64,000 nucleotides of DNA from Streptomyces liliifuscus (lineage in GTDB: Bacteria; Actinomycetota; Actinomycetes; Streptomycetales; Streptomycetaceae): assembly GCF_016598615.1 (NCBI RefSeq), contig NZ_CP066831.1:8556001-8620000 (forward strand), written 5' to 3'. The notes beneath the pieces were generated by a model that saw only the letters and a list, made by a program, of their open reading frames with translations, was not told the origin of the DNA and ran no database searches. Every line of letters starts with the position of its first letter. Within the stretch, counting starts at the first letter, position 1. Below are positions 34,172-59,400 of the stretch, piece after piece. Both the position numbers and the translations under genes were made by a program.

Positions 34172-34843
34172 TCACAGCGTCGAGCGCAGCCACTGCTCCA
34201 CGCTCGCGATGTGCACGGTCGCCCAGGAGCGGGCGGCCTCCGCGTCGCGGTCGCGGAGCGCGCTGAGGATCGCGCGGTGCTCATGGAGCGTGCGGCTGAC
34301 CGCGTCCTCCTGGGTCAGGCCGCGCCAGATACGGGCGCGGGTCGTGGGACCGGACAGGCCGTCGAGGAGGGAGCAGAGCACCGAGTTGCCGGAGGACTGG
34401 ACGATGCCCCGGTGGAACTCCAGGTCGCAGGCGACGAGCTCCTCCACCGAGGGCGCGGCGCCCAGCGCGTTCAACTGGGCGCTGAGCGCGTCCAGCTGCT
34501 GCTCGCTGATCCGCAGAGCCGCCATCGCCGTCGCGGCCGGCTCCAGGATGCGGCGTACCGCGAGGAACTCCAGGACCGTGTCGTCGCGGTGGAAGTCCAC
34601 GACGAAACTCAGCGCCTCCAGAAGGAGCTGCGGGTCCAGGCTCGTGACGTATGTGCCGTCGCCCTGCCGTACGTCCAGGATGCGGATGAGGGACAGCGCC
34701 CGCACCGCCTCGCGCAGGGAGTTGCGGGACAGGCCCAGATCGGCGGCGAGCTCGCTCTCCTTGGGGAGACGGTCGCCGGGGCGCAGTGCGCCGGAGACGA
34801 TCATTCCCTTGATCTTCTCGATCGCCTCATCGGTGACTGCCAT
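34172..34843 (-). CDS. FadR-type GntR family transcriptional regulator
   Basis: 223 aa. An N-terminal winged helix (LRPGDRLPKESELAADLGLS, RNSLREAVRALS) is followed by an all-helical FCD effector domain with the metal/ligand-binding residues in EFLAVRRILEPAA, ACDLEFHRGIV and LHEHRAILSALRDRD. The FadR/FCD subgroup responds to small carboxylates or sugar acids. It lies 97 nt downstream of the nucleoside-salvage operon on the same strand, with an inverted repeat in its own promoter region, so autoregulation is likely and control of that operon possible. Confidence 0.88.
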   Translation of the reverse strand: MAVTDEAIEKIKGMIVSGALRPGDRLPKESELAADLGLSRNSLREAVRALSLIRILDVRQGDGTYVTSLDPQLLLEALSFVVDFHRDDTVLEFLAVRRILEPAATAMAALRISEQQLDALSAQLNALGAAPSVEELVACDLEFHRGIVQSSGNSVLCSLLDGLSGPTTRARIWRGLTQEDAVSRTLHEHRAILSALRDRDAEAARSWATVHIASVEQWLRSTL

Positions 34844-34940: not shown

Positions 34941-36275
34941 TCACACAAGGTCGGACGGTGACACGAGGGCCCCCAGGTCCGCAAGCGCGGCGGCCTCGTC
35001 GAGCGTCGTGAGCGTACGGCCGCGCATCAGGATCCGCCCGTCGACGACCGTGTCCCGTACGTCCGAGGCCCGCGCCGAGTACGCAAGGGTCGACCACGGA
35101 TCGTGGCGGGGCGCCAGATGCGGACCGCCCAGGTCCAGGACGATCAGGTCGGCCCGCTTGCCCGCCTCCAGCGAGCCCAGGTGGGCGTCGAGACCCAGCG
35201 CGCGGGCGCCCTCGACGGTGGCCATCCGCACGGCCTGCTCGGCGCCGACGGCGGTCGGGTCCCCGGCCGCCTTGTGCACCAGGGCGGCCGTGCCCAGCGC
35301 CCGCAGGACGTCCAGCGTGTTGGAGCTGACCGCGCCGTCCGTGCCGAGACCGACGGTCACGCCCGCGTCCAGCAGCTGTGGCACCGGGGCGATGCCGCAG
35401 CCCAGCTTGAGGTTGGACACCGGGCAGTGGGCGACCGAGGTGCCGGTCCGGGCGAGCGCCGCGATCTCGGGGCCGGTCAGGTCCACGGCGTGCGCCAGCA
35501 GCAGATCGGGGCCGAGCAGCCCGAGCGAGTCGAGCAGTTCCACCGGGCGTTTGCCGTAGCGCTCCTCGACGGTCGCGACCTCGGCGGCGTTCTCCGCGGC
35601 GTGGATGTGCAGCAGCGCGCCGAACTCCCTTGCCAGCGCGGCGATTTCGGTCAGCTGGGCGGGGGAGAGGGTGTAGGCGGAGTGCGCGAAGAGCACGGGA
35701 CGCGTGCCGGGCCGCGGGGCGCGGCCGGCCAGGTCCCGGCGCGCCCACTCCAGCCGGTCCCCGTACGCCATGCCGTCGGGCGGGGTCGGTACGTCCATGA
35801 AGGTCGGCCCCGTGTGCAGCCGCCAGCCCGCCTCGCGCGCGACCTGCTCGGCAGCCTCGTGGAACCAGTACATGTCGAGCGCCGAGGTCACCCCGGCCCG
35901 TACGCTCTCGGCGATCGCGATCCGGATCGCCGCCGCGACGTTCTCCGCCGACAGCAGTTCGCTCTCCCAGCGGATCACCCGCTCCAGGAAGCCCTGCAGC
36001 GTCACGTCGTCGGCGCGGCCGCGCAGCAGCGTCATCGCCAGATGGGTGTGCGCGTTGACCAGGCCGGGCAGCACCAGGCAGCCGGTCGCGTCGACGTCGT
36101 CGGCGGCCGTGTAGCGCGCCCGCAGTTCGGCGGCCGGTCCGACCGCGAGGATCTCGCCGTCGCGGACGGCCACGGCTCCGGCGGGTACGACCGTGCCGGC
36201 CGCGTCGACGGTGAGGATGTCGCCGCCGTGGACCAACAGGTCGGCGGGGGCGGTCCGTTGGGCGGGAATGCTCAC
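34941..36275 (-). CDS. Amidohydrolase: MTA/SAH-type nucleoside deaminase
   Basis: 444 aa from a GTG that overlaps the phosphorylase stop by 4 nt (the frame continues upstream but only as a shadow). Metal and active-site motifs of the amidohydrolase deaminases appear in order: LVNAHTHLAMTLLRG (H76, H78), LLHIHAAENAAEV, LLLAHAVDLTGPE and GLGTDGAVSSNTLDVL (metal Asp). The set resembles the MtaD/SsnA group, which deaminates S-adenosylhomocysteine, 5'-methylthioadenosine or related nucleosides. As last gene of an importer-phosphorylase operon beside mtnA, methylthioadenosine or adenosine-type substrates are favoured. Guanine or 8-oxoguanine deaminase is the main alternative. Confidence 0.8.
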   Translation of the reverse strand: MSIPAQRTAPADLLVHGGDILTVDAAGTVVPAGAVAVRDGEILAVGPAAELRARYTAADDVDATGCLVLPGLVNAHTHLAMTLLRGRADDVTLQGFLERVIRWESELLSAENVAAAIRIAIAESVRAGVTSALDMYWFHEAAEQVAREAGWRLHTGPTFMDVPTPPDGMAYGDRLEWARRDLAGRAPRPGTRPVLFAHSAYTLSPAQLTEIAALAREFGALLHIHAAENAAEVATVEERYGKRPVELLDSLGLLGPDLLLAHAVDLTGPEIAALARTGTSVAHCPVSNLKLGCGIAPVPQLLDAGVTVGLGTDGAVSSNTLDVLRALGTAALVHKAAGDPTAVGAEQAVRMATVEGARALGLDAHLGSLEAGKRADLIVLDLGGPHLAPRHDPWSTLAYSARASDVRDTVVDGRILMRGRTLTTLDEAAALADLGALVSPSDLV

Positions 36276-37024
36276 AGCGCTTCCCCTTCCGCGAGCAGGC
36301 GCAGGGCTTCGAGGGAGACCACACTGCCGCGCTCCACACCCGCGGCGACGACCTCGCGGTGCGGGTTGTAGCCACCCGTGGCCTTCTCGTCGACGAGTTC
36401 GTCGGCGTTCGCGCCGTCGATCACGAGGACACCGCCCGCGGTCAGCCCGCGCAGCGAGGCCGTGACGAGCAGTGCCGACAGCTCCATCTCGATGGCGGCG
36501 AGCCCCGCCCCGTCGTACGAGGGCAGGGGTATCAGCCCCGGCTGGAAGGCGGCCCGCGTCCAGACGAAGCCCCGGTGGTGCGGGGCGCCCTGCTCGCGCG
36601 CCGCGCGCTGGAGCGCGAGCACCGCCTCGGGCGCGGCCACCGCCGGATACTCGGGCGGCAGCAGCTGCTGGGTCACCCCGTCGTCGCGTACGGCCGCCTC
36701 CGCTATCACCAGATCGCCGTCCCGGATCCCGGGCCGCATCGCACCCGCCGTGCCGAACCGCAGGATCGTGCGCACCCCGGCGTCGGCCAGCTCCTGGAAG
36801 AGCAGGATCGCGCCGGGCCCGCCGACGCCGTGCGAGGCGACGACGACCGGCAGCCCCTTCCAACTCCCGCTGAACACACGGTATTCGCGGTGGTACGACA
36901 CCTCCTCCGCGCCGTCCAGCAGCGCGGCGACGGCCGCGGCACGCGCCGGGTCGCCGACCACGACGGCGTGCGGGGGCAGCCCGGTCCGCGGTATCCGGGT
37001 GATGGGCAGCAGATCCTGCGTCAT
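36272..37024 (-). CDS. Nucleoside phosphorylase (NP-I family)
   Basis: 250 aa from an ATG overlapping the permease stop by 4 nt. PNP/uridine-phosphorylase motifs: PHAVVVGDPARAAAVAALL (phosphate site), GVGGPGAILLFQELADAGV, TILRFGTAGAMRPGIRDGD and AAIEMELSALLVTA, whose Glu-Met-Glu binds the ribose hydroxyls. These enzymes split nucleosides with phosphate to give the base and ribose-1-phosphate. With an importer upstream and a deaminase downstream, it may convert methylthioinosine to hypoxanthine and methylthioribose-1-phosphate, the substrate of the adjacent MtnA; an ordinary purine or pyrimidine nucleoside is the alternative. Confidence 0.85.
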   Translation of the reverse strand: MTQDLLPITRIPRTGLPPHAVVVGDPARAAAVAALLDGAEEVSYHREYRVFSGSWKGLPVVVASHGVGGPGAILLFQELADAGVRTILRFGTAGAMRPGIRDGDLVIAEAAVRDDGVTQQLLPPEYPAVAAPEAVLALQRAAREQGAPHHRGFVWTRAAFQPGLIPLPSYDGAGLAAIEMELSALLVTASLRGLTAGGVLVIDGANADELVDEKATGGYNPHREVVAAGVERGSVVSLEALRLLAEGEAL

Positions 37025-37890
37025 GAAACGACTCCAGTCGTACGGCCGGTGCGGCGGCGGCGCTGCGCCGTGCTGAGGAAGAGGGCGCCGAGCGTGACGA
37101 CGTACGGCGCGGCGTCGGTCGCCTGCTGGGGCAGGCCGAGGCCCTGCAGCCGGAAGCCCGCGGCCTCGGCGACACCGAAGAGCAGGGCGGCGAGCAGGAC
37201 ACCGAACGGCAGGGCACGCCCGAGCATGACCGCGACGACGGCGATCCAGCCGCGGCCCGCCGTCATGTTCTCGGAGAACAACGTGACGTTCCCCAGGGCC
37301 AGTTGGGCCCCGGCGAGCCCGCACAGGACACCGGAGACGAGCACGGCCGCGTACTTGTACCTGACCGGGCTCACCCCCAGTGTGGCCGCGGCCTCCGGTG
37401 CCTCACCGACCCCGCGCAGCCGCAGCCCCCACACATGCCGGGACAGCATCAGGGCGGCCACCACGACCGCGGCCCACGCCAGATACGCGAGCGGCGAGAA
37501 GCCACCGACCAACGGGAGCCCGGCGAGTGACGGATCGTCAAAGGTGCCCTGCACACCGAAGATCGTACGCAGCAGGAAGCTGGTCAGTCCCACCGCGAGG
37601 AGGTTCATCGCGACGCCGAGCACCACCGCGTCGCCGCGCAGGGTGACCGTGCCGACGGCCAGGATCAGCGAGTACGCGGCGGCGGCGAGCGCTGCCGCCA
37701 GGACGCCGAGCCATGGGCTGCCGGTGAACCAGCTGGTGGCCACGGCCGTGAAGCAGCCCATCAGCATCATGCCTTCGAGGCCGATGTTGAAGACGCCCGC
37801 CCGCTCGCACACGGCGCCGCCGAGCGCGGCGAGCAGGATGGGGGTCAGCGCGCGCAGCGCCGACATGAGGAGATCGGAGTCGAAGAACAT
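37021..37890 (-). CDS. Nucleoside-type ABC transporter permease (second permease)
   Basis: 289 aa, mostly membrane helices. ALGGAVCERAGVFNIGLEGM and MLMGCFTAVATSW are typical of the branched-chain/ribose permease-like component of BMP-dependent nucleoside importers; VLGVAMNLLAVGLTSF and YKYAAVLVSGVLCGLAGAQL are further family signatures. It forms the channel with the other permease. The start overlaps the upstream permease stop by 1 nt and its stop overlaps the phosphorylase start by 4 nt, so the six-gene operon is tightly coupled. Confidence 0.88.
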   Translation of the reverse strand: MFFDSDLLMSALRALTPILLAALGGAVCERAGVFNIGLEGMMLMGCFTAVATSWFTGSPWLGVLAAALAAAAYSLILAVGTVTLRGDAVVLGVAMNLLAVGLTSFLLRTIFGVQGTFDDPSLAGLPLVGGFSPLAYLAWAAVVVAALMLSRHVWGLRLRGVGEAPEAAATLGVSPVRYKYAAVLVSGVLCGLAGAQLALGNVTLFSENMTAGRGWIAVVAVMLGRALPFGVLLAALLFGVAEAAGFRLQGLGLPQQATDAAPYVVTLGALFLSTAQRRRRTGRTTGVVS

Positions 37891-38960
37891 CAGGCGAACT
37901 CCCCCTGGGCGATGGGCTCCTGGGCCGTCTTCCGTCGTCTGCGCGGGAAGCTCAGGCGCGCCGCGAGGAACACGATGACGATGGCCTGCAACACCTGAGT
38001 CAGCTCGCGCGGGACCTCCGTGGTGCGCTCCATGGAGAGCCCGCCGACCTGCAGCACGGCGAAGAAGAACGACGCCAGCACGGTGCCCAGCGGGGCCGCC
38101 GCCGCGAGCAGCGCCGCGGTAAGACCCGTCCAGGTGTAGCCGGGCGCCGTCAGCGAACCGTCGAGGAAGCGGTACGGGAAGCTCAGTACGCCGATCGCGC
38201 CGACCAGTCCGGCGAGCGCGCCGGAAGTGGCCATCAACCGGAGGGTGAGCCCCTTGCGTTCCACGCCCGCGTACGCGGCGAAGCGGGGATTGAGGCCGGT
38301 CATGCGGATCTCGTACCCGATGGCCGTGCGCCGGTCGGCGAACCAGTAGGCGGCCGCCGCGAGCACGACGAGAACCAGCCCGAACGTCACGGTCGACGTA
38401 CCGAAGGCGGGCAGCGCCACGCCGTCGGGGAGCCGCCGCGTCTGGGGCAGGCTGGATCCGGGCTCCTTGAGCGGATACCGCACCAGATAGGAGGCGAACG
38501 AGGTCGCCGGATAGCTGAGCAACAGGCTGCTCACCAGCAGCGGCACCCCGAACCGGTTCTCGCAGAGCGCGGCCAGCGCGGCGTACGCGGCACCCGCCGT
38601 GATCCCGGCGAGGAGCGCGAGCACGACGGTGAGCGGCGCGGGCAGCGGCGAGTACAGCCCGGTGACGGCGGCCGCGATGCCGCCGAGCACCATCTGGCCG
38701 TCCCCGCCGAGGTTGATGAGCCCGGCGCGCAGCGGAATCGCCAGCGCGAGCGCCATCCCCAGCACACTGGTCCCGGTGCTGAGCGTCGCTCCGATCCCGT
38801 CGGCCCCGAGCGAGCCGGTGACGACGGCCCCGTACGCGGCGAACGGATCGGCGCCCGTGCCGACCAGGAACAGCGCGCCGATGACGAGCCCGGCGAGCAC
38901 GGAGAAGGTGACGGGGGAGCGGAGCGCCCCCGCGATGCGGTCCGTCGATGGGCGGGCCAT
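37890..38960 (-). CDS. Nucleoside-type ABC transporter permease (first permease)
   Basis: 356 aa with about 9-10 membrane helices. It contains ALAIPLRAGLINLGGDGQMV and LGGIAAAVTGLYSPL, the N-terminal signature of the larger BMP-type permease, and AAYAGVERKGLTLRLMATSG near the cytoplasmic coupling region. A short cytoplasmic N-terminus and a basic C-terminus (ARLSFPRRRRKTAQE) flank the helices. It begins 1 nt after the stop of the ATPase gene. Partners are the ATPase, the second permease and the lipoprotein upstream. Confidence 0.88.
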   Translation of the reverse strand: MARPSTDRIAGALRSPVTFSVLAGLVIGALFLVGTGADPFAAYGAVVTGSLGADGIGATLSTGTSVLGMALALAIPLRAGLINLGGDGQMVLGGIAAAVTGLYSPLPAPLTVVLALLAGITAGAAYAALAALCENRFGVPLLVSSLLLSYPATSFASYLVRYPLKEPGSSLPQTRRLPDGVALPAFGTSTVTFGLVLVVLAAAAYWFADRRTAIGYEIRMTGLNPRFAAYAGVERKGLTLRLMATSGALAGLVGAIGVLSFPYRFLDGSLTAPGYTWTGLTAALLAAAAPLGTVLASFFFAVLQVGGLSMERTTEVPRELTQVLQAIVIVFLAARLSFPRRRRKTAQEPIAQGEFA

Positions 38961-38961
38961 G

Positions 38962-40629
38962 TCAGTCTCCGTCCGGCGCGGGGGTGTTGGGCGCGGCGGC
39001 CGTCGGGGCCGGTGTCGCGACGGCGGCTGCTGTGGCTGCTGTTGCGGATACGGGCTCGGCCGTGCCGCCCGCCATCGCCAGGCCTAGCGTCGCCTCGTCC
39101 GCGTCCGACTTGGTGTACGAAGCCGTCACCCGGCCCTCGTACATCACCAGGACCCGGTCGGCGAGGCCGCGGATCTCGCTGAGTTCGGCGGAGACGAGGA
39201 GGACGGCGTGGCCCGCGTCGCGGTAGGCGACGAGCTCGTCGTGGATGGCCTGGATCGCGCCGATGTCCACTCCCCGGGTGGGCTGTTCGACCAGCAACAG
39301 CGGTGCCCCGTGGGCGAGTTCGCGGCCGATCAGGAGCTTCTGGAGGTTGCCGCCGGACAGTGCGGAGGCCGGTACGTCGGGTGTGGACGCCTTGATGCCG
39401 AAGCGTTCGACGAGTGCGCGCGCGTGGGCACGTACCGCCGAGGGCGGCAGCAGTCCGTGCCGTGAGGAGAGTGTGGTGCGGTGGTGGCCCATCGCGAGGT
39501 TGTCCGCGACGGTCGCCGCGGGCGCGGTGCCGACCGCGTGGCGGTCCTCCGGCACGTACGCGAGGCCCTTCGAGCGCCGCTCGGTCGCCGAGGCGTGCGT
39601 GATGTCCTCGCCCCGAAGACCGACCCGCCCGGCCGTGACCGGCCGCAGTCCGGCGAGCGCCTCGACGAGTTCGCTCTGGCCGTTGCCCGCGACCCCTGCG
39701 ATACCGACGATCTCCCCGGCACGGACGGCCAGTTGGACCTCCCGCACACCCGCTGTGCTCAGCCCCTCGACGTCCAGCACGACCTCACCGGGGCTGCCCT
39801 CGGGGTGGACCCGGTCCAGGTCGACCGCGCGGCCGGTCATCGCGGTCGCGATCTCGGCGGCGGTCGTGTCGGCGGTGCGCAGCCGCGCGACCACCCTGCC
39901 GTCCCGCAGGACCGTGACGTTGTCGCTGCCTTCGAGCACCTCACGCAGTTTGTGCGTGACAAGGATCACCGTGCGGCCCTGCGCGGTCAGCGACCGTAGG
40001 ACCGCGAACAGGGCGTCGGCCTCGGCGGGCGTGAGCACGGCCGTCGGCTCGTCGAGGATGAGCGTACGGGCGCCGCGGTGCAGCAGTTTCAGGATCTCGA
40101 CGCGCTGCCGCAGTCCGACCGGCAGGTCGCCGACCCTGGCGTCCGGATCGACGGCGAGGCCGTGCTCCTCGGCGAGTTCACGCACCCGGCGCCGCGCCGC
40201 CGCCCGGTCCAGCAGGCCGAAACGGCGCGGCTCGGCCCGGTAGACGACGTTCTCGGCGACCGTCAGCGAGTCGAACAGCTTGAAGCTCTGGTGGACCATG
40301 CCGAGCCCGGCGGCCATCGCGGCGCCCGGGCTCCCGAAGGACACCTCGTGCCCCTCGATCCGTATCGACCCCGCGTCAGGCCGCTCCATCCCGTACAGGA
40401 CGGACATCAGCGTGGACTTGCCCGCGCCGTTCTCGCCCATCAGGGCGTGGATCTCGCCGCGCCGGACGGTCAGGTCGACCGAGTCGTTGGCGAGGGTGCC
40501 GGGGAAGCGCTTGGTGATGCCGCGCAGCTCGACGACCGCGGGTGCGCCAACTGCGGGAGCGTCGGCCGCGAGCGCGTCACCGGAGGTGTCGACGCCCGCG
40601 GCCGGTCCGTCACTTGGTCGCCGGGTCAT
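38962..40629 (-). CDS. Nucleoside-type ABC transporter ATPase with two nucleotide-binding domains
   Basis: 555 aa, a tandem ATPase as in RbsA/YufO-type importers. The first half has a canonical Walker A (GENGAGKST), a signature region LPVGLRQRVEILKLL and Walker B LILDEPTAVLTPAE. The second half has a degenerate Walker A (VAGNGQSELVEALAGL) with a conserved signature (LSGGNLQKLLIGREL), the usual asymmetry of this subfamily. An Ala/Pro-rich N-terminal extension of about 30 residues and an Ala/Thr-rich C-terminal tail are likely disordered. The start lies inside the end of the lipoprotein gene (20-nt overlap). Confidence 0.9.
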   Translation of the reverse strand: MTRRPSDGPAAGVDTSGDALAADAPAVGAPAVVELRGITKRFPGTLANDSVDLTVRRGEIHALMGENGAGKSTLMSVLYGMERPDAGSIRIEGHEVSFGSPGAAMAAGLGMVHQSFKLFDSLTVAENVVYRAEPRRFGLLDRAAARRRVRELAEEHGLAVDPDARVGDLPVGLRQRVEILKLLHRGARTLILDEPTAVLTPAEADALFAVLRSLTAQGRTVILVTHKLREVLEGSDNVTVLRDGRVVARLRTADTTAAEIATAMTGRAVDLDRVHPEGSPGEVVLDVEGLSTAGVREVQLAVRAGEIVGIAGVAGNGQSELVEALAGLRPVTAGRVGLRGEDITHASATERRSKGLAYVPEDRHAVGTAPAATVADNLAMGHHRTTLSSRHGLLPPSAVRAHARALVERFGIKASTPDVPASALSGGNLQKLLIGRELAHGAPLLLVEQPTRGVDIGAIQAIHDELVAYRDAGHAVLLVSAELSEIRGLADRVLVMYEGRVTASYTKSDADEATLGLAMAGGTAEPVSATAATAAAVATPAPTAAAPNTPAPDGD

Positions 40630-41665
40630 CGACCGTCAGCTCTCCGGACACGATCCGGTCGCGCAGTGCCTCGACCTTCTTCAGTACGTCCTCGTGCTCG
40701 GCGATCACGCACTTGGAGGACTCCACGCCGTCCTCCAGGCCCGTGAGGCTGATGCCGCCCTCCTTGAGGCCGTACGAGACGGTCTTGCCGCCCTTGCCGG
40801 CGAGGACCTGCTCGACGCCCTCCCGCACGGCGACGTCCGTCTTCTTGATCACGTTGTCGACGACCGTGCCGGGCGCGGCCGTGCACTGGTTGACGTCCAC
40901 GCCGTACGCGTACGCGCCCTTCGCCTTGGCCGCTTCGAAGACCCCGTAGTTGCTGGCCGCGGCCGCCGCCATGATCTGGTCGGCGCCCTTGGCGAGCAGC
41001 GAGTTCGCCTGCTCCTTGGCGCGCGCCGAGTCGTCGAACGGCGACTGGCCGCCGACGAACCGGGTGCTCGCGGACGTCTTCGCGGAGACCTTCTTCGCGC
41101 CGGCCGCGAACGGGTCGCTGTAGCGCCGGAACTGCGGGGTGTCGAGGACGTCGACCGCGCCGACCTTGCCGCTCTTGCTCAGCAGTCCGGCCTCGGCACC
41201 CGCCAGATAGACGCCCTCGTGCTCACGGAAGACGGCGCAGCTGACGTTCTCGAACGTCTTCGTCGTGCACGCGTCGATCACCAGGAACTGCTGCTTGGGG
41301 TGGGCCTCGGCCTGCTGCGCGACCACGTCGGCGAACTCGAAGCCGACCAGCACGATGACGTCCGGCGCGGCGTCGACCGCCGCCTGCACGTTCTGCTGCT
41401 GCGAGGCGGTGTCGGAGGACTGGTAGACCTTCTGCGTCCCGTCGTGCGCCTTGGCCGCGGCCTTCACTCCGTCGACCGCCAGCTTGAGGAACTCGTTCTG
41501 CCCGACCGGGTCCGGCGTCACCAGGGTGAAGGTCTTGCCGCCGCTCTTGGCAGTCGTGGAATCGTCGTTCTTCGCGGCCGCGTTGCAGCCGGTGGCCGCG
41601 GTGGCGAGAAGCACCGTGCCGGTCGCGACGGCGGCGAGATGGAGCGAACGGGGTCTACGAGGCAT
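40610..41665 (-). CDS. BMP family substrate-binding lipoprotein of a nucleoside-type importer
   Basis: 351 aa from ATG 41665 (GGAAGG 8 nt upstream). A lipoprotein signal peptide (LHLAAVATGTVLLATAATGC) places Cys at about residue 27. The mature part is a BmpA/PnrA-like periplasmic-binding fold: FTLVTPDPVGQNEFLKLAVD, AAPDVIVLVGFEFADVVAQQ, FREHEGVYLAGAEAGLLSKS and KGADQIMAAAAASNYGVFEA. BMP proteins bind purine nucleosides and related compounds. It is the first structural gene of an operon with ATPase, two permeases, phosphorylase and deaminase, and is preceded by a cysteine-containing leader peptide. Confidence 0.9.
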   Translation of the reverse strand: MPRRPRSLHLAAVATGTVLLATAATGCNAAAKNDDSTTAKSGGKTFTLVTPDPVGQNEFLKLAVDGVKAAAKAHDGTQKVYQSSDTASQQQNVQAAVDAAPDVIVLVGFEFADVVAQQAEAHPKQQFLVIDACTTKTFENVSCAVFREHEGVYLAGAEAGLLSKSGKVGAVDVLDTPQFRRYSDPFAAGAKKVSAKTSASTRFVGGQSPFDDSARAKEQANSLLAKGADQIMAAAAASNYGVFEAAKAKGAYAYGVDVNQCTAAPGTVVDNVIKKTDVAVREGVEQVLAGKGGKTVSYGLKEGGISLTGLEDGVESSKCVIAEHEDVLKKVEALRDRIVSGELTVDDPATK

Positions 41666-41805
41666 GGGAGTGCCCTTCCGGGAAGGTGCGTGCGGCGGCG
41701 CGCGCTCAGGCGGGAAACGCTGAGAGGTGAAGGCTCGGAGCAGAGGGTGGAGCGAGGGGGGGGAGAACACGGCGGACGCCCGGTGGGGGACAGGCGTCGC
41801 GGCTG

Positions 41806-41871
41806 TCAGCGCCGACAGCAGTCGCTGGCGCACCGGCCGTAGTCGAGGAAGCGGCGCATCGTCAGCAGCAC
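41806..41871 (-). CDS. Cysteine-rich leader peptide of the nucleoside importer operon
   Basis: 21 codons from GTG 41871, with a perfect AAGGAGG 5 nt upstream, ending MRRFLDYGRCASDCCRR then TGA; three Cys codons lie in the last eight. The layout (hydrophobic start, Arg-Arg, Asp, Arg, then Cys/Arg at the stop) resembles the putative leader peptides that precede sulfur-metabolism operons in Streptomyces. It lies 140 nt upstream of the lipoprotein start. By analogy with Cys-codon leader ORFs in mycobacteria, ribosome stalling when Cys-tRNA is short could raise downstream expression; the mechanism here is inferred. This ORF is too short for ordinary gene finders. Confidence 0.65.
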   Translation of the reverse strand: MLLTMRRFLDYGRCASDCCRR

Positions 41872-42015
41872 ACGTCCTCCTTCGCGTAGGCCTTCCGGCT
41901 GCGGGTGCTGGACTGTAACACCGGTTTCCGGACACCTGCTCGACTGTCTCGAACTGTGGTTCTCCGAGGTCATGTACGGTGTCGCGCATCTTCGGAACAT
42001 CAGGAGTGTCCCGCT

Positions 42016-43047
42016 ATGCCCCAGGAACTGCGCGCTGTCGACTGGACCGGAAACAGCCTCGCGCTCATAGACCAGACCGTCCTCCCGCACCGGACCGAGA
42101 CCCGCCGGATCCGCGATGTGGACGACCTGGTGGACGCGATCCGGCGGCTCGTGGTGCGCGGGGCGCCCGCGATCGGTGCCGCCGGGGCGTACGGGGTCGC
42201 GCTCGCGATGCTCCAGGGGCAGCGCGAGGGGTGGTCGCGGGAGGAAGTACTCGCGGCCGTCGCGCGGATCCGTGCCGCGCGGCCCACCGCGGTCAACCTC
42301 ATGGTGTGCGTCGACCGGGTGCTGACGCGGTTCGACGACGGGCTCGACGCGGTGCTCGCCGAGGCGGCGGAGGTGCAGCGTGAGGATGTCGCGGCCAACC
42401 GGGCCATGGGCGCGTTCGGGGCGGACTGGCTGCTCAAGAGGGTCGGCGCGGACCGGCCGTTGCGGGTGCTGACCCACTGCAACACCGGGGCGTTGGCCAC
42501 GGCGGGGTGGGGCACCGCGCTCGGGGTCATCCGCGAACTGCACGCCCGGGGGCGGCTTGAGGTCGTGTACGCCGATGAGACGCGGCCTCTGCTGCAGGGA
42601 TCGCGGTTGACCGCCTGGGAGTTGGTGCAGGAGGGGATTCCGCACTTCGTCCAGGCGGACGGGGCTGCCCCGGGCACGATTCTGCGGGGTTCGGTCGACG
42701 CGGCGATCGTTGGCGCCGATCGGATCGCCGCCAATGGGGATACGGCCAACAAGGTGGGCACGGTGGGGGTCGCACTGGCGTGCGCCGACGTGGGGGTGCC
42801 GTTTCTGGTGGCTGCGCCTACTACGACGGTCGATCTTTCCACGGCCACGGGTGCTGACATTCACATTGAACTGCGGGGTGAGGACGAGGTGTTGGAGTGG
42901 GCCGGGGTTCGGACTGCTCCTGCCGGGTCCCGCGGGCACAACCCGGCTTTCGATGTCACCCCGGGACGGTTGGTGACGGGGCTGGTGACTGAGCGGGGTG
43001 TGTTGGAGGTGTCTGCGGGGGAGTTGCCGGGGGATCAGTTGAAGTAG
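42016..43047 (+). CDS. mtnA: S-methyl-5-thioribose-1-phosphate isomerase
   Basis: 343 aa from ATG 42016 with CAGGAGTG upstream. The MtnA signatures are LVVRGAPAIGAAGAYGVALA at the N-terminus, THCNTGALATAGWGTALGVI with the catalytic Cys, and IVGADRIAANGDTANKVGT with the catalytic Asp; length matches the family. It isomerises methylthioribose-1-phosphate to methylthioribulose-1-phosphate in the methionine salvage pathway. It is divergent from the nucleoside importer operon (about 350 nt apart) and convergent with mtnB, the next pathway enzyme. The eIF-2B-alpha-like family also contains ribose-1,5-bisphosphate isomerases, but the context makes MtnA clear. Confidence 0.95.
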   Translation: MPQELRAVDWTGNSLALIDQTVLPHRTETRRIRDVDDLVDAIRRLVVRGAPAIGAAGAYGVALAMLQGQREGWSREEVLAAVARIRAARPTAVNLMVCVDRVLTRFDDGLDAVLAEAAEVQREDVAANRAMGAFGADWLLKRVGADRPLRVLTHCNTGALATAGWGTALGVIRELHARGRLEVVYADETRPLLQGSRLTAWELVQEGIPHFVQADGAAPGTILRGSVDAAIVGADRIAANGDTANKVGTVGVALACADVGVPFLVAAPTTTVDLSTATGADIHIELRGEDEVLEWAGVRTAPAGSRGHNPAFDVTPGRLVTGLVTERGVLEVSAGELPGDQLK

Positions 43048-43215: not shown

Positions 43216-43824
43216 TCAGTGACCCGAAAGCTCCAGTTCAAGCAGCCACTCCACAACCTCCGTGTGGTGGCGCGCCTGCCGAGGCGTGTCGCCCCACACA
43301 TAGAGACCGTGGCCCGCCACGACCACCGCGGGCATGCGTGGGTCGCGGGCCGCCTCCAGGCGGTCGCCGAGGACCAACATGTCCTGGCTGTTGGTGATGA
43401 CGGGGAGGGTGACCTCGACGTCGTGGGCGGGCTGGCCGATGCCCTTGAGCATCTCCAAATCCTTGAAGAGGATGCCGCCCGGCAGACGGCGGCCCATCGC
43501 CACGGACGCCACCGTGTGGACGTGCACCACGGCACCGGCGCCGGTCAACGCGGCCACACGCGCGTGCAGTTCGGCCTCGGCGGACGGCTTGCCGCCGTTC
43601 ACCGCGGCACCCCGACCGTCGACCAGCACGACGTCCGAGGGCGTCAGTTCGCCCTTGTCGTGGCCGCTGGCGGTGACCGCGAGCCGCAGGGGATCGCGGG
43701 AGACCACCACGGAAAGGTTTCCGGAGGTGCCCCGCATCCAGCCGAAGGAGGCGAAGCGGGCGGACTCGGCGGCGAGGACGGCCCCCGCCTCCTCCAGGTC
43801 GAGTGTGCTGATGTCGGTGCTCAC
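43216..43824 (-). CDS. mtnB: Methylthioribulose-1-phosphate dehydratase
   Basis: 202 aa from a GTG overlapping the mtnC stop by 4 nt. It is a class II aldolase/adducin fold with the zinc His pair in VVHVHTVASVAMG and the third His in VAGHGLYVWGD; MRGTSGNLSVV and TASGHDKGELTPSDVVLVD form the phosphate/substrate loops. It dehydrates methylthioribulose-1-phosphate to the diketone phosphate used by MtnC. Last gene of the mtnD-mtnC-mtnB operon. Other class II aldolases are excluded mainly by context and by the MtnB-like N-terminus. Confidence 0.93.
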   Translation of the reverse strand: MSTDISTLDLEEAGAVLAAESARFASFGWMRGTSGNLSVVVSRDPLRLAVTASGHDKGELTPSDVVLVDGRGAAVNGGKPSAEAELHARVAALTGAGAVVHVHTVASVAMGRRLPGGILFKDLEMLKGIGQPAHDVEVTLPVITNSQDMLVLGDRLEAARDPRMPAVVVAGHGLYVWGDTPRQARHHTEVVEWLLELELSGH

Positions 43825-44546
43825 GTGATGCTCCCGGAAGTGCTGATGGTGATCTCGTCGAACGTCCCCGCCTGCGCGTGGTCGCCGACGCCCTGCTCGT
43901 AGTACGGCTCCCCGGGCCGCCGGATCCCGACCGCGTGCCAGCCGGCCGCACGGGCCGCGTCCAGCTCGCCCGGCCGGTCGGAGAGGAAGAGGAGCCGGTC
44001 GGCCTCCACACCGGTCGACCCGGCGATACGGCGGTAGGAGTCCGGTTCCTGCTTGGGCCCCGCGTTCTCGGTGTCGTACAGGCCCGAGACGAGCGGCAGC
44101 AGATCGCCGTCCGGGCTGCTCGTGAACCACGCGCGCTGCGCGGCCACGGACCCGGACGAGTACACGTACAGCCGTACGCCGTCGCCGTGCCAGCGGCGCA
44201 GCACCGGCAGCACGTCGTCGTAGAAGTGGGAGACCAGGTCGCCGCGGGCGAACCCCTCGGACCAGATGAGGCCCTGAAGGGTCTTCAGCGGGGTGGCCTT
44301 CACGTCCTCGTCGAGCCACTCGTGCAGCGCCTTCTCCACGCGTACGGCGTCGGCGTCGGGCTCGCCGAGCAGGTCCCGTACCTGGGAGACCGCCCGTACG
44401 ACGTCGGGATCGGTGCTCCGCTCCGAGAGCACCGCTCCGAAACGGGAGCGCGAGTACGGGTACAGCACGTCGACGACGAACCCCGTGGCGCTCGTGGTGC
44501 CCTCGATGTCGAGCACCACGGCGTCCACGTCGAACCGGAGGCTCAC
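43821..44546 (-). CDS. mtnC: Acireductone synthase (enolase-phosphatase E1)
   Basis: 241 aa from a GTG that overlaps the mtnD stop by 4 nt. HAD-superfamily motifs: the nucleophile Asp in [15 protein letters not shown], the Ser in [12 protein letters not shown], the Lys in [11 protein letters not shown] and the acidic loop [15 protein letters not shown]. The EGTTS variant of motif 1 is diagnostic for the bifunctional MtnC, which enolises and dephosphorylates the diketo phosphate to acireductone. The middle gene of mtnDCB. Confidence 0.95.
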
Positions 44547-45142
44547 GCCGCGGCCCGGTCCCGCTCGTACCCCGCCGCGATGGTGTCGTAGTCGGGGAAG
44601 CGCCCGGCGATGGTGGAACCGGTGAACGAGCCGATCCAGCCGTCCTCCTCGTGGAAGAACCGGATGGCGGTGAAGCCCGGCGTCGTCCCCATGTCGAACC
44701 AGTGCGTCGTCCCGCGCGGCACGCCCAGCAGGTCGCCCTTCTCGCAGAACACGGCGTGCACCTCGCCGTTCACGTGCAGATAGAAGATCCCGGAGCCCGA
44801 GACGAAGAACCGCACCTCGTCATCGTCGTCGTGGGTGTGCTCCTGGAGGAACTTCTCCCGCGCGGCCTTCGCCTTCACGGGGTACTCCGGGTCGTCGCTC
44901 GGGTGCAGACCGAGGACGTCGACGGTGGTGAAGCCCTCTTCGGCGTTGAGCCGCTTGATCTCCGGCCCGTACGCGGCGAAGACGGTGTCGCTGTCGGCGT
45001 CAGCCGGGACGTCCTCACGGACGGGCCACTGCTCGTAGCGCACGCCGAGCGGCGCGAGCGCGGCGGCGATCTCGGCGGGGTCGGAGGTACGACGCACGGT
45101 GGTCTCGGGACCGGACTCCGGCCACGTCGTCAACAGGGTCAT
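44543..45142 (-). CDS. mtnD: Acireductone dioxygenase
   Basis: 199 aa from ATG 45142 with a GGAGTT site. The frame continues upstream to 45310, but that stretch is unlike the family. Cupin metal ligands are visible: the two His and Glu in [18 protein letters not shown] and the later His in GTTHWFDMG. With Fe2+ the enzyme gives the ketoacid precursor of methionine plus formate; with Ni2+ it gives an off-pathway product and CO. The active-site metal cannot be told from sequence. First gene of the mtnDCB operon; a short Cys-containing ORF precedes it. Confidence 0.95.
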
Positions 45143-45465: not shown

Positions 45466-45537
45466 ATGAAGACGCTGCTGCTCGTTCGGCGGCTGTACGT
45501 GGACTTGCTCCGGTCGACCACAGCCCGCTGTCGCTGA
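45466..45537 (+). CDS. Leader peptide of the methylthioribose-type importer operon
   Basis: 23 codons starting MKTLLL and ending VRRLYVDLLRSTTARCR then TGA. The RR-x(2)-VDL-x-R...A-x-CR pattern matches the putative leader peptides found upstream of sulfur-assimilation operons in Streptomyces. No ribosome site is seen; the promoter at 45430-45459 would start transcription at the ATG, so the leader is probably translated from a leaderless end. It ends 170 nt before the lipoprotein gene. The single Cys codon followed by Arg and stop is where Cys-dependent stalling would act (inference). Confidence 0.65.
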   Translation: MKTLLLVRRLYVDLLRSTTARCR

Positions 45538-56237: not shown

Positions 56238-56326
56238 CCCGGTGCCGTCGGCCGCGTCCCCACCACGGATCACACAAGCCCCACCGCAGGTCGCGTGCGT
56301 GTCGCCCGTCCGCCCCGTGGACTCCA

Positions 56327-56371
56327 CTGACCAAGGCGCACGCCGCGGGCTACCCTTGCGGCGTGCGCCTT
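56327..56371 (+). promoter_or_regulatory. metH promoter candidate embedded in a 14-bp inverted repeat
   Basis: -35 CTGACC (56327-56332), 18 nt, -10 TACCCT (56351-56356). The -10 lies in the loop of a perfect inverted repeat AAGGCGCACGCCGC / GCGGCGTGCGCCTT (56333-56346 with 56358-56371). Either a repressor site over the promoter or, if transcription starts further up, a leader hairpin about 50 nt before the metH start. Confidence 0.5.
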
Positions 56372-56421
56372 CCATGAGAAGCGCAAAGCCGACAGCCGTC
56401 GCACTTCAGGGAGCATCTTCC

Positions 56422-59400
56422 ATGGCCTCGTCGCCTAACCCGTCCCTCTCGTCCTCCTCCGCCTACAGCAGGACCCGAACCGATGCCCTCCGCGAGGCGC
56501 TCGCCACCCGCGTGGTGGTGGCCGACGGTGCGATGGGCACGATGCTGCAGGCACAGGATCCGACGATGGAGGACTTCGAGAATCTCGAAGGCTGCAACGA
56601 GATCCTGAACCTCACGCGCCCGGACATCGTCCGATCCGTCCACGAGGAGTACTTCGCCGTCGGCGTCGACTGCGTGGAGACCAACACCTTCGGCGCCAAC
56701 CACGCGGCCCTCGCCGAGTACGACATCGCCGAGCGCGTCTTCGAGCTCTCCGAGTCGGGTGCCCGCATCGCCCGCGAGGTCGCCGACGAGTTCACCGCCT
56801 CGACCGGGCAGCAGCGCTGGGTGCTCGGCTCCATGGGCCCCGGCACCAAGCTGCCGACCCTCGGCCACGCCCCGTACACCCTGCTGCGCGACGCCTACCA
56901 GCGGAACGCGGAGGGCATGATCGCCGGCGGCGCCGACGCGCTGCTCGTGGAGACCACCCAGGACCTGCTGCAGACCAAGGCGTCGGTCATCGGCGCCCGC
57001 AAGGCCCTGGACACCCTCGGCGTCGACCTGCCGCTGATCGTCTCGGTGACCGTCGAGACCACCGGCACCATGCTGCTCGGCTCGGAGATCGGCGCCGCGC
57101 TCACCGCGCTGGAGCCGCTCGGCATCGACATGATCGGCCTGAACTGCGCCACGGGCCCCGCCGAGATGAGCGAGCACCTGCGCTATCTGGCCCGCCACTC
57201 CCGCATCCCGCTGTCCTGCATGCCGAACGCGGGCCTCCCCGTCCTCGGCAAGAACGGCGCCCACTACCCGCTCACGGCACCCGAGCTGGCCGACGCCCAG
57301 GAGACCTTCGTACGCGAGTACGGCCTCTCCCTGATCGGCGGCTGCTGCGGCACGACCCCCGAGCACCTGCGCCAGGTCGTCGAGCGCGTCCGGGACCTGA
57401 CGCCGACCGCGCGCGACCCGCGCCCCGAGCCCGGCGCCGCCTCGCTCTACCAGACCGTGCCGTTCCGCCAGGACACCGCGTACATGGCGATCGGCGAGCG
57501 GACGAACGCCAACGGCTCGAAGAAGTTCCGCGAGGCCATGCTGGACGGCCGCTGGGACGACTGTGTGGAGATGGCCCGCGACCAGATCCGCGAGGGCGCG
57601 CACATGCTCGACCTGTGCGTCGACTACGTGGGCCGCGACGGCGTCGCCGACATGGAGGAGCTGGCCGGCCGCTTCGCCACCGCCTCCACCCTGCCGATCG
57701 TGCTCGACTCCACCGAGGTCCCCGTCATCCGGGCCGGCCTGGAGAAGCTCGGCGGCCGCGCGGTCATCAACTCCGTCAACTACGAGGACGGCGACGGCCC
57801 CGAGTCGCGCTTCGCGAAGGTCACCGGGCTCGCGCAGGAGCACGGCGCCGCGCTGATCGCGCTGACCATCGACGAGGAGGGCCAGGCCCGCACCGTCGAG
57901 CACAAGGTCGCCATCGCCGAGCGCCTGATCGAGGACCTGACGGAGAACTGGGGCATCCACGAGTCGGACATCCTCATCGACACCCTGACCTTCACGATCT
58001 GCACCGGTCAGGAGGAGTCCCGCAAGGACGGCATCTCGACGATCGAGGCGATCCGCGAACTCAAGCGCCGCCGCCCGGACGTACAGACCACCCTCGGTCT
58101 GTCCAACATCTCCTTCGGCCTCAACCCGGCCGCCCGTGTCCTGCTCAACTCGGTCTTCCTCGACGAGTGCGTCAAGGCGGGCCTCGACTCGGCGATCGTG
58201 CACGCGTCGAAGATCCTGCCGATCGCCCGCTTCGACGACGAGCAGGTCAGCACGGCCCTCGACCTGATCTACGACCGTCGCGCCGAGGGTTACGACCCCC
58301 TCCAGAAGCTGATGGCGCTGTTCGAGGGCGCCACCACCAAGTCCCTGAAGGCGGGCCGGGCCGAGGAACTGGCCGCGCTGCCCCTGGACGAGCGGCTCAA
58401 GCGGCGCATCATCGACGGCGAGAAGAACGGACTGGAAGCCGATCTCGACGAGGCACTCCAGACCCGCCCCGCCCTCGACATCGTCAACGAGACGCTCCTC
58501 GACGGCATGAAGGTCGTCGGTGAGCTGTTCGGTTCCGGCCAGATGCAGCTGCCGTTCGTGCTCCAGTCGGCCGAGGTCATGAAGACCGCCGTGGCCCATC
58601 TCGAACCGCACATGGAGAAGACCGACGACGAGGGCAAGGGCACCATCGTGCTGGCCACCGTCCGCGGCGATGTCCACGACATCGGCAAGAACCTCGTCGA
58701 CATCATCCTGTCCAACAACGGCTACAACGTCGTCAACCTCGGCATCAAGCAGCCCGTCTCCGCGATCCTGGAGGCCGCCGAGGAGCACCGCGCCGACGTC
58801 ATCGGCATGTCGGGCCTGCTGGTCAAGTCCACGGTGATCATGAAGGAGAACCTGGAGGAGCTCAACCAGCGCAAGATGGCAGCCGACTACCCCGTGATCC
58901 TCGGCGGCGCGGCCCTCACCAGGGCGTACGTCGAGCAGGACCTGCACGAGATCTACGAGGGCGAAGTCCGCTACGCCCGGGACGCGTTCGAGGGCCTGCG
59001 CCTGATGGACGCGCTGATCGCGGTCAAGCGCGGTGTGCCCGGCGCGAGCCTGCCCGAGCTGAAGCAGCGCCGGGTCAGGGCCACCCCCCAGACGGTCGTC
59101 GAGGAGCGCCCCGAGGAGGGCTCGGTCCGCTCCGACGTGTCCATCGACAACCCGGTTCCCGAGCCGCCGTTCTGGGGCACCCGCGTCATCAAGGGCATCC
59201 AGCTCAAGGAGTACTCCTCCTGGCTCGACGAGGGCGCGCTCTTCAAGGGCCAGTGGGGCCTCAAGCAGGCGCGCAAGGGCGACGGGCCGACGTACGAGGA
59301 GCTGGTGGAGACCGAGGGCCGGCCGCGGCTGCGCGGTCTCCTCGACCAGCTGCAGACGGGGAACCTGCTGGAGGCGGCCGTCGTCTACGGCTACTTCCCG

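Follow-up and report, generated by a model that had tools for sequence, protein, structure and literature searches.

The account of Cys-responsive attenuation in mycobacteria reportedly comes from Canestrari et al. (2020), who are said to have worked on Cys-rich leader peptides (Ms5788A). In excerpts of three papers (PMC9094748, PMC13236596, PMC4633059), leaders of this type (Ms5788A, NF042933) are described as upstream ORFs (uORFs) that precede sulfur genes, carry Cys codons near their ends and mediate attenuation in response to cysteine. Part of a study of Rhodobacterales (PMC8632094) describes conserved Cys codons in the uORF of cysS (uORFC-8-2), for which ribosome-mediated attenuation was proposed. 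For P. aeruginosa, an excerpt of PMC6302742 describes an MTA deaminase/MTI phosphorylase route, in which deamination of MTA is followed by phosphorolysis to methylthioribose-1-phosphate. Here, a 64,000-nt stretch of Streptomyces liliifuscus DNA (NZ_CP066831.1, positions 8,556,001 to 8,620,000; hereafter, the window) was analyzed, in which a short ORF precedes an operon that begins with a BMP/PnrA-like lipoprotein gene (Table 1). We judge it likely, with a probability of roughly 0.7, that this ORF acts in cis as a cysteine leader peptide (i.e., a uORF attenuator) of the BMP operon, and that the operon imports and salvages a sulfur nucleoside, most likely MTA. The BMP leader would thus be a known kind of leader with a new target.

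Table 1. Features of the BMP locus and its surroundings in the window.
Feature	Coordinates	Strand	Basis or remark
GntR/FCD regulator	34172..34843	-	PF00392, PF07729
Amidohydrolase, proposed MTA deaminase	34941..36275	-	PDB relatives, E ~1e-79
PNP_UDP_1 phosphorylase, proposed methylthioinosine phosphorylase	36272..37024	-	PF01048
Permease 2	37021..37890	-	Position, membrane-like sequence, conserved order
Permease 1	37890..38960	-	Position, membrane-like sequence, conserved order
ABC ATPase	38962..40629	-	NCBIfam B6/sugar-type ATPase families, below cut-off
BMP/PnrA-like lipoprotein, first operon gene	40610..41665	-	PF02608, 164 bits
C-rich, G-poor spacer from leader stop to BMP start, candidate Rho-loading region	41666..41805	-	
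Weak hairpin copy	41702..41720	-	6 pairs, some G-U; counterpart of ortholog hairpins before BMP
Leader ORF, VLLTMRRFLDYGRCASDCCRR followed by stop	41871-41806	-	GTG start, 21 codons plus stop
Codon 19, UGU (Cys), invariant, proposed sensor codon	41815..41817	-	TGT in 44/44 leaders
Codon 14, Cys, TGC in the window; residue invariant, codon free	41830..41832	-	TGC 25 : TGT 19
Shine-Dalgarno AAGGAGG of the BMP leader	41876..41882	-	4-nt spacer to GTG
TACAGT, probable extended -10 (TGtTACAGT; TGTTACAGT) of the leader/BMP transcript	41912..41917	-	By eye
Conserved box CACAGTTCGAGAC, 5′ to the -10 in the interval that separates the divergent mtnA and BMP transcripts	41946..41958	-	
mtnA, divergent, across the same intergenic region	42016..43047	+	TIGR00512, 427 bits, above cut-off
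mtnB, mtnC, mtnD region	43216..45142	-	Named from sequence and order; block conserved in 34/34 genomes
Second leader, MKTLLLVRRLYVDLLRSTTARCR followed by stop, before the importer and mtnK operon	45466-45537	+	NF042934, 23.1 bits (cut-off 27)

The preliminary description of this DNA reported a 21-codon ORF with a perfect AAGGAGG site at 41806-41871, which was confirmed, with a GTG start on the minus strand. The start of BMP (41665) lies 140 nt 3′ of the leader stop (41806), and a Shine-Dalgarno (SD)-like run precedes the leader in most orthologs. Within the window, SD-plus-start matches to RGGAGGNNNNRTG occurred at chance level (3 observed vs. 3.4 expected); therefore, the evidence for a leader must be comparative. 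No Rfam family was matched at the leader, and Rfam matches elsewhere in the window consisted of one metH-type RNA and one tRNA. The former, a Streptomyces-metH RNA (RF03076, 95.8 bits; 56305-56424, plus strand), lies where the ORF of a cobalamin-type methionine synthase begins. Genes of sulfur metabolism are abundant in the window as a whole.

BMP orthologs (E up to 1e-120) were found in 34 of 392 Streptomyces genomes, giving a set of 33 neighbourhoods with the window as the thirty-fourth. The order mtnD, mtnC, mtnB, mtnA, BMP was identical in 34/34, and at 29 of these loci the search recovered an RR..D leader preceded by an SD. The other five were read by eye: L115 holds a degenerate copy in the same frame, in which RR and D are lost, L118 has a leader of the known LTSRRHIDLCRCAAAGCC (RRHIDL) type, and the leaders of L119-L121 are unrelated. 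A second set of loci was assembled via the phosphorylase, for which a search of 293 genomes of the order gave 31 with the gene, including 20 that were absent from the first set. BMP adjoins mtnA in 15 of these 20 and all 15 have a leader (14 RRFLD and one of an unrelated kind). The five loci left out (L161, L166, L168, L169, and L172) are those where BMP does not adjoin mtnA. In the first four, the phosphorylase, deaminase and GntR genes, or part of this group, occur without BMP or mtnA-D beside an apparent glpD, with apparent permease remnants seen by eye in L161 and L166; L172 is missing BMP and the ATPase.

The preliminary description had named a leader missing from orthologous operons as one of two results that would speak against it; at the mtnA-BMP loci, window included, a short Cys-rich ORF was found at this place in 49 of 49. 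By type, 43 are the same as in the window, one is degenerate, one is RRHIDL, and four are unrelated and Cys-rich. The 49 loci share descent and the count does not stand for 49 independent events; kinship is addressed by the selection test described below. A degenerate pattern with an RRFLDxGRC core had matches in 26 of the 392 Streptomyces genomes, and 25 of the 27 matches lay just upstream of a BMP ortholog, whereas the reversed pattern, used as a control, had none. The unrelated leaders of L119, L120, L121, and L173 share the core CPAVS...RRMCRCRRC, with a UGU near the end, and the promoter box is kept at these loci. Since their frame is unrelated and yet Cys-rich with a UGU, it is as if the Cys codons, and not the peptide, need to be kept. 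A narrow pattern (RRMCRCRxC) for relatives of the CPAVS-type leader found none in 61 genomes.

Codon and selection counts were made on 44 of the 49 leaders, namely those of the RRFLD type with L115 included and L118-L121 and L173 excluded. For the 43 unique sequences among them, pN/pS was 0.36 in frame, while the two alternative frames gave 1.2 and 1.8, indicating that the leader frame is under purifying selection. Residues L3, L9, Cys14, and Cys19 are invariant (44/44), R6 and D10 occur in 43 leaders each, and R7, G12, R13, and D17 are nearly invariant. The three Cys residues of the preliminary description held up in part: Cys14 and Cys19 are each present in 44/44, but the middle one (Cys18) occurs in only 8/44, with Gly at that position in 28. 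A three-Cys character was accordingly rejected as the defining feature. As for the pattern said to be common with the leader before the mtnK operon, D-x2-R-x5-C-R is indeed shared, although the spacing from RR to D is off by one residue. The register RR-x2-D-x2-R-x5-C is present in 42 of the 44 leaders when R or H is allowed at the second basic place.

Codon usage at the last invariant Cys (Table 1) stands against a background in which Cys codons were TGC in 20 cases and TGT in none among 14 window genes, and 842 TGC vs. 100 TGT in gene segments of all fetched loci (UGC, ~90%). Where Cys18 is present, its codon is TGC (8/8). When 14 leaders of the NF042934 type were read in the S. liliifuscus genome, the corresponding Cys was TGT in 13 and replaced by Tyr in the fourteenth. 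A pattern that accepts either Cys codon (RRH[VIM]D[LF]xR[VIM]x4C) gave 134 matches in 61 Streptomyces genomes, and by hand tally all of them (134/134) have TGT; in the same 61 genomes, a reversed control of this RRHVDL-type pattern and a TGC-only pattern each found none. Across the class (148 genomes), 74 RRHVDL-type leaders were matched, 71 with TGT and three with TGC (hand tally), the TGT:TGC split being 25:1 inside Streptomyces and 46:2 outside the genus (46/48 TGT). These counts point to UGU as the sensor codon of the leader family. The literature searched makes no mention of an invariant UGU in sulfur leaders; the primary mycobacterial study lies outside that search and priority is not claimed. 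The fixed UGU is probably the part most likely to surprise specialists. It offers a one-base test (UGU to UGC, with the same peptide) of how actinobacterial sulfur leaders work, and it sharpens the pattern with which unannotated leaders and their sulfur operons can be found.

The window peptide had no match to the NF042934 profile at E up to 10 (curated cut-off, 27 bits) and none to NF042933 (Ms5788A; cut-off, 45 bits). When four RRFLD-type ortholog peptides were compared with NF042933, the best reached 16.8 bits (cut-off, 45) and the others had no match. Against a profile made for this genome, with 12 of its leaders as input, the window peptide scored 10.0 bits, a value reached by 0 of 50 shuffles, and 42 of the 44 leaders scored above the 95% point of 2200 shuffles. 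On these scores, we regard the RRFLD leader as a divergent relative of the NF042934 leaders that shares their register and codon and would function as they do, and as a non-member by the curated cut-off.

Within the S. liliifuscus genome, NF042934 has 10 matches above the cut-off, of which nine precede genes of sulfur-metabolism families: NtaA/DmoA monooxygenase, rhodanese, SsuA (L003), cysteine synthase, sulfonate ABC ATPase, SfnG, sulfite/nitrite reductase, sulfite dehydrogenase, and mercaptopyruvate sulfurtransferase. The tenth, adjacent to the first, has no Cys at the invariant position. The targets of weaker matches include the mtnK operon, a 2OG-Fe(II) oxygenase, a ROK protein, and a peptide-type binding protein, the last two not being obvious sulfur genes. 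The link between leader and sulfur genes thus appears strong but, below the NF042934 cut-off, not perfect. Leader L011 (G000:C1:4913540-4913587), which has the UGU, is the one before the 2OG-Fe(II) oxygenase, possibly an organosulfur enzyme. Leader L010 (G000:C1:1874773-1874817) has Tyr in place of the invariant Cys, lies near the opposite-strand leader L001, and is possibly dead. No leader of the BMP-leader type was found at the two other Bmp importer genes of this genome.

The mtnK leader, counted in a search without an SD requirement, is present in 31 of 33 loci (two are without it), is near-invariant over 23 residues, and has TGT as its Cys codon in 31/31. It has no SD, and the spacing of a TTGACG and a CATGAT puts its ATG as a possible first codon of the transcript; the mtnK leader therefore looks leaderless.

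At the BMP locus, MTA deaminase-like and phosphorylase genes occur together with mtn genes; beyond mtnD, mtnC, and mtnB lie a second importer and then mtnK. The closest solved structures to the deaminase are 4dyk, 4gbd, and 4f0r, of which 4f0r is named as an MTA/SAH deaminase; 4dyk and 4gbd are presumably the P. aeruginosa enzyme. The best PDB relatives of the phosphorylase are purine nucleoside or putative uridine phosphorylases such as 3mb8 and 3fow, which we take to be apicomplexan enzymes, some of them accepting methylthioinosine. In profile searches, uridine and purine phosphorylase families scored best with this protein, all below cut-off. The nearest solved relatives of BMP are distant Bmp/PnrA-type lipoproteins. 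The best reading is that the importer substrate would be MTA (or MTI), because mtnA is next door and a sulfur leader stands in front. The argument of the preliminary description, that a sulfur leader favours MTA as the substrate, is supported by the leaders at 49/49 loci, by a leader family found mostly on sulfur genes, by the linkage to mtnA-D, and by the other Bmp genes being without such a leader. The S. liliifuscus genome also encodes a canonical MTA phosphorylase (MTAP) at another place, so that a further route for MTA would be redundant in part; the two could neatly divide the work, MTAP handling MTA made by the cell itself and the BMP operon external MTA. No BMP-type MTA importer is described in the literature searched. 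If correct, the present assignment adds an importer of the nucleoside (BMP) type to the sulfur regulon and provides a cheap route to assigning MTA import.

A consensus promoter scan found none at the leader. In 30 of 49 loci, the probable -10 was matched at a constant distance (24-25 nt) from the box upstream of it. The box itself, possibly an operator or a -35 element, was matched in 48 of 49 with a hand-made variant set, being absent in L118. As the probable -10 and the box precede the leader, leader and BMP operon are probably on one transcript. The spacer has a mean composition of 50.5% C and 23.2% G, with C exceeding G in 44/44, whereas the pre-leader region has 30.8% C and 30.6% G and the regions upstream of mtnA and GntR are likewise unlike the spacer. 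However, the region upstream of mtnD is also C-rich (C/G above 1.6 in 30/49) and an SD-requiring search found no conserved leader there, which makes for a weak Rho reading that is retained as one possibility. In most loci, a hairpin of the form CGCGCTC-loop-GAGCGCG lies ~41-65 nt 5′ of BMP, and base changes that preserve pairing are seen in L160 and L095; stems of four pairs or fewer are found in 7 of the 44 leader loci. In a stem search, the mean score was 8.60 vs. 6.20 for shuffled spacers (0 of 100 shuffles as high), whereas RNAalifold, run on an automatic alignment of the 44 spacers, returned no consensus structure and so disagrees with the stem search; our claim is confined to the hairpin. 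For the hairpin before the mtnK operon, 3 of 50 shuffles scored as high, so that it did not stand out clearly from them. An intrinsic terminator was looked for and none was found; no U tract follows the hairpin. The off-switch could therefore be Rho-dependent termination, termination at the hairpin, or control of translation.

Taken as a whole, the leader is a short ORF whose conserved Cys codons lie close to the stop, with an invariant UGU three codons before its end and a C-rich spacer behind it, translation being inferred from selection. With ample Cys-tRNA, the ribosome would pass the UGU and terminate at the leader stop, and the naked C-rich spacer and/or the hairpin would then stop transcription (or translation) before BMP. 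Under a shortage of cysteine or sulfur, the ribosome would wait on the UGU near the leader end and occupy the first part of the spacer, with expression of the operon as the outcome. The position of the UGU is such that a ribosome stalled there should cover the spacer start, which is the geometry expected if stalling means expression. The operon would then import MTA (or MTI), deaminate and phosphorolyse it, and pass methylthioribose-1-phosphate to MtnA and the adjoining methionine salvage pathway. A point against a Cys leader is that the end product of this salvage is Met and not Cys.

Alternatively, the leader could act via its nascent peptide (RR-x2-D-x2-R-x5-C), which would stall ribosomes alone or together with cysteine, SAM, or MTA, and not via the charging of Cys-tRNA. 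Such a mechanism would fit the strong conservation of residues other than Cys (L3, L9, R6, D10) and the almost invariant 23 residues of the mtnK leader, but we consider it unlikely, as an unrelated peptide occupies the same place in four loci and a signal held in the peptide only would leave the synonymous invariance of UGU unexplained. It is likewise improbable, in our view, that a sulfur leader controls an importer of another substrate, such as 5′-deoxyadenosine, S-adenosylhomocysteine, or plain purine nucleosides. The below-cut-off phosphorylase scores (best with uridine and purine families), the presence of MTAP elsewhere, and the promiscuity of related archaeal enzymes of the MTA route, described in part of PMC6302742, would agree with such a substrate, whereas the linkage to mtnA-D in 34/34 genomes argues against it, and there would be no ready explanation for a sulfur leader in front of an importer whose nucleoside contains no sulfur.

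That the short ORF has no sensing role, and serves only to hold ribosomes on the transcript or to couple translation, deserves little credence: any translated ORF shields RNA and the SD is strong, but the conservation of Cys and of UGU is position-specific and the family is tied to sulfur genes. An ORF arising by chance would be in keeping with the chance-level SD-to-start matches in the window, yet this explanation has a negligible likelihood and was rejected on conservation and in-frame selection, i.e., the pattern matches at BMP loci, the presence in 49/49, and the pN/pS of 0.36. The cysteine leader of an MTA-type import operon is the reading that we prefer.

tRNA-Cys has the anticodon GCA and carries a thiomethyl modification at A37. 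MiaB is encoded in the S. liliifuscus genome (483 bits; cut-off, 355). In Streptomyces, the reading of a U-ending codon through wobble by a G34 tRNA is inefficient, as was shown for GAU in an excerpt of PMC9262613, which mentions no modification other than thiomethylation at position 37; the ms2io6A37 modification is treated in part of PMC12772374. UGU may be fixed because G-U wobble by tRNA-Cys(GCA) is slow and probably dependent on the sulfur-containing A37 modification made by MiaB. It is a rather doubtful extension that actinobacterial sulfur leaders, the BMP leader included, sense the decoding of this one wobble codon, sulfur shortage being read twice, via uncharged and via under-thiomethylated tRNA-Cys. 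If this were true, the choice between synonymous codons would serve a whole bacterial class as a sensor of sulfur.

The BMP leader is like the NF042934 leaders in its register (RR-x2-D-x2-R-x5-C), in being a short ORF, set before sulfur genes in that family and before a putative sulfur-nucleoside operon here, and in having UGU at the invariant Cys. It differs from them in having RRFLD and GRC in place of RRHVDLxRV, an additional invariant Cys14, and no profile score. Like the mycobacterial leaders, it is a uORF in which Cys codons lie close to the end; those leaders are described as polycysteine and leaderless in excerpts of PMC9094748 and PMC13236596, whereas the BMP leader has two spaced invariant Cys residues, is led by an SD, and precedes a putative MTA-type importer. 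The uORF of cysS in Rhodobacterales also has conserved Cys codons, but UGC is dominant there and a U-tract terminator is described in the part of PMC8632094 compared here, whereas UGU is invariant in the BMP leader and no U-tract terminator was found behind it. Finally, the proposed sequence of deamination and phosphorolysis is that of the P. aeruginosa route as excerpted from PMC6302742, from which the BMP operon differs in that the predicted enzyme genes are joined to a BMP importer and a Cys leader beside mtnA-D.
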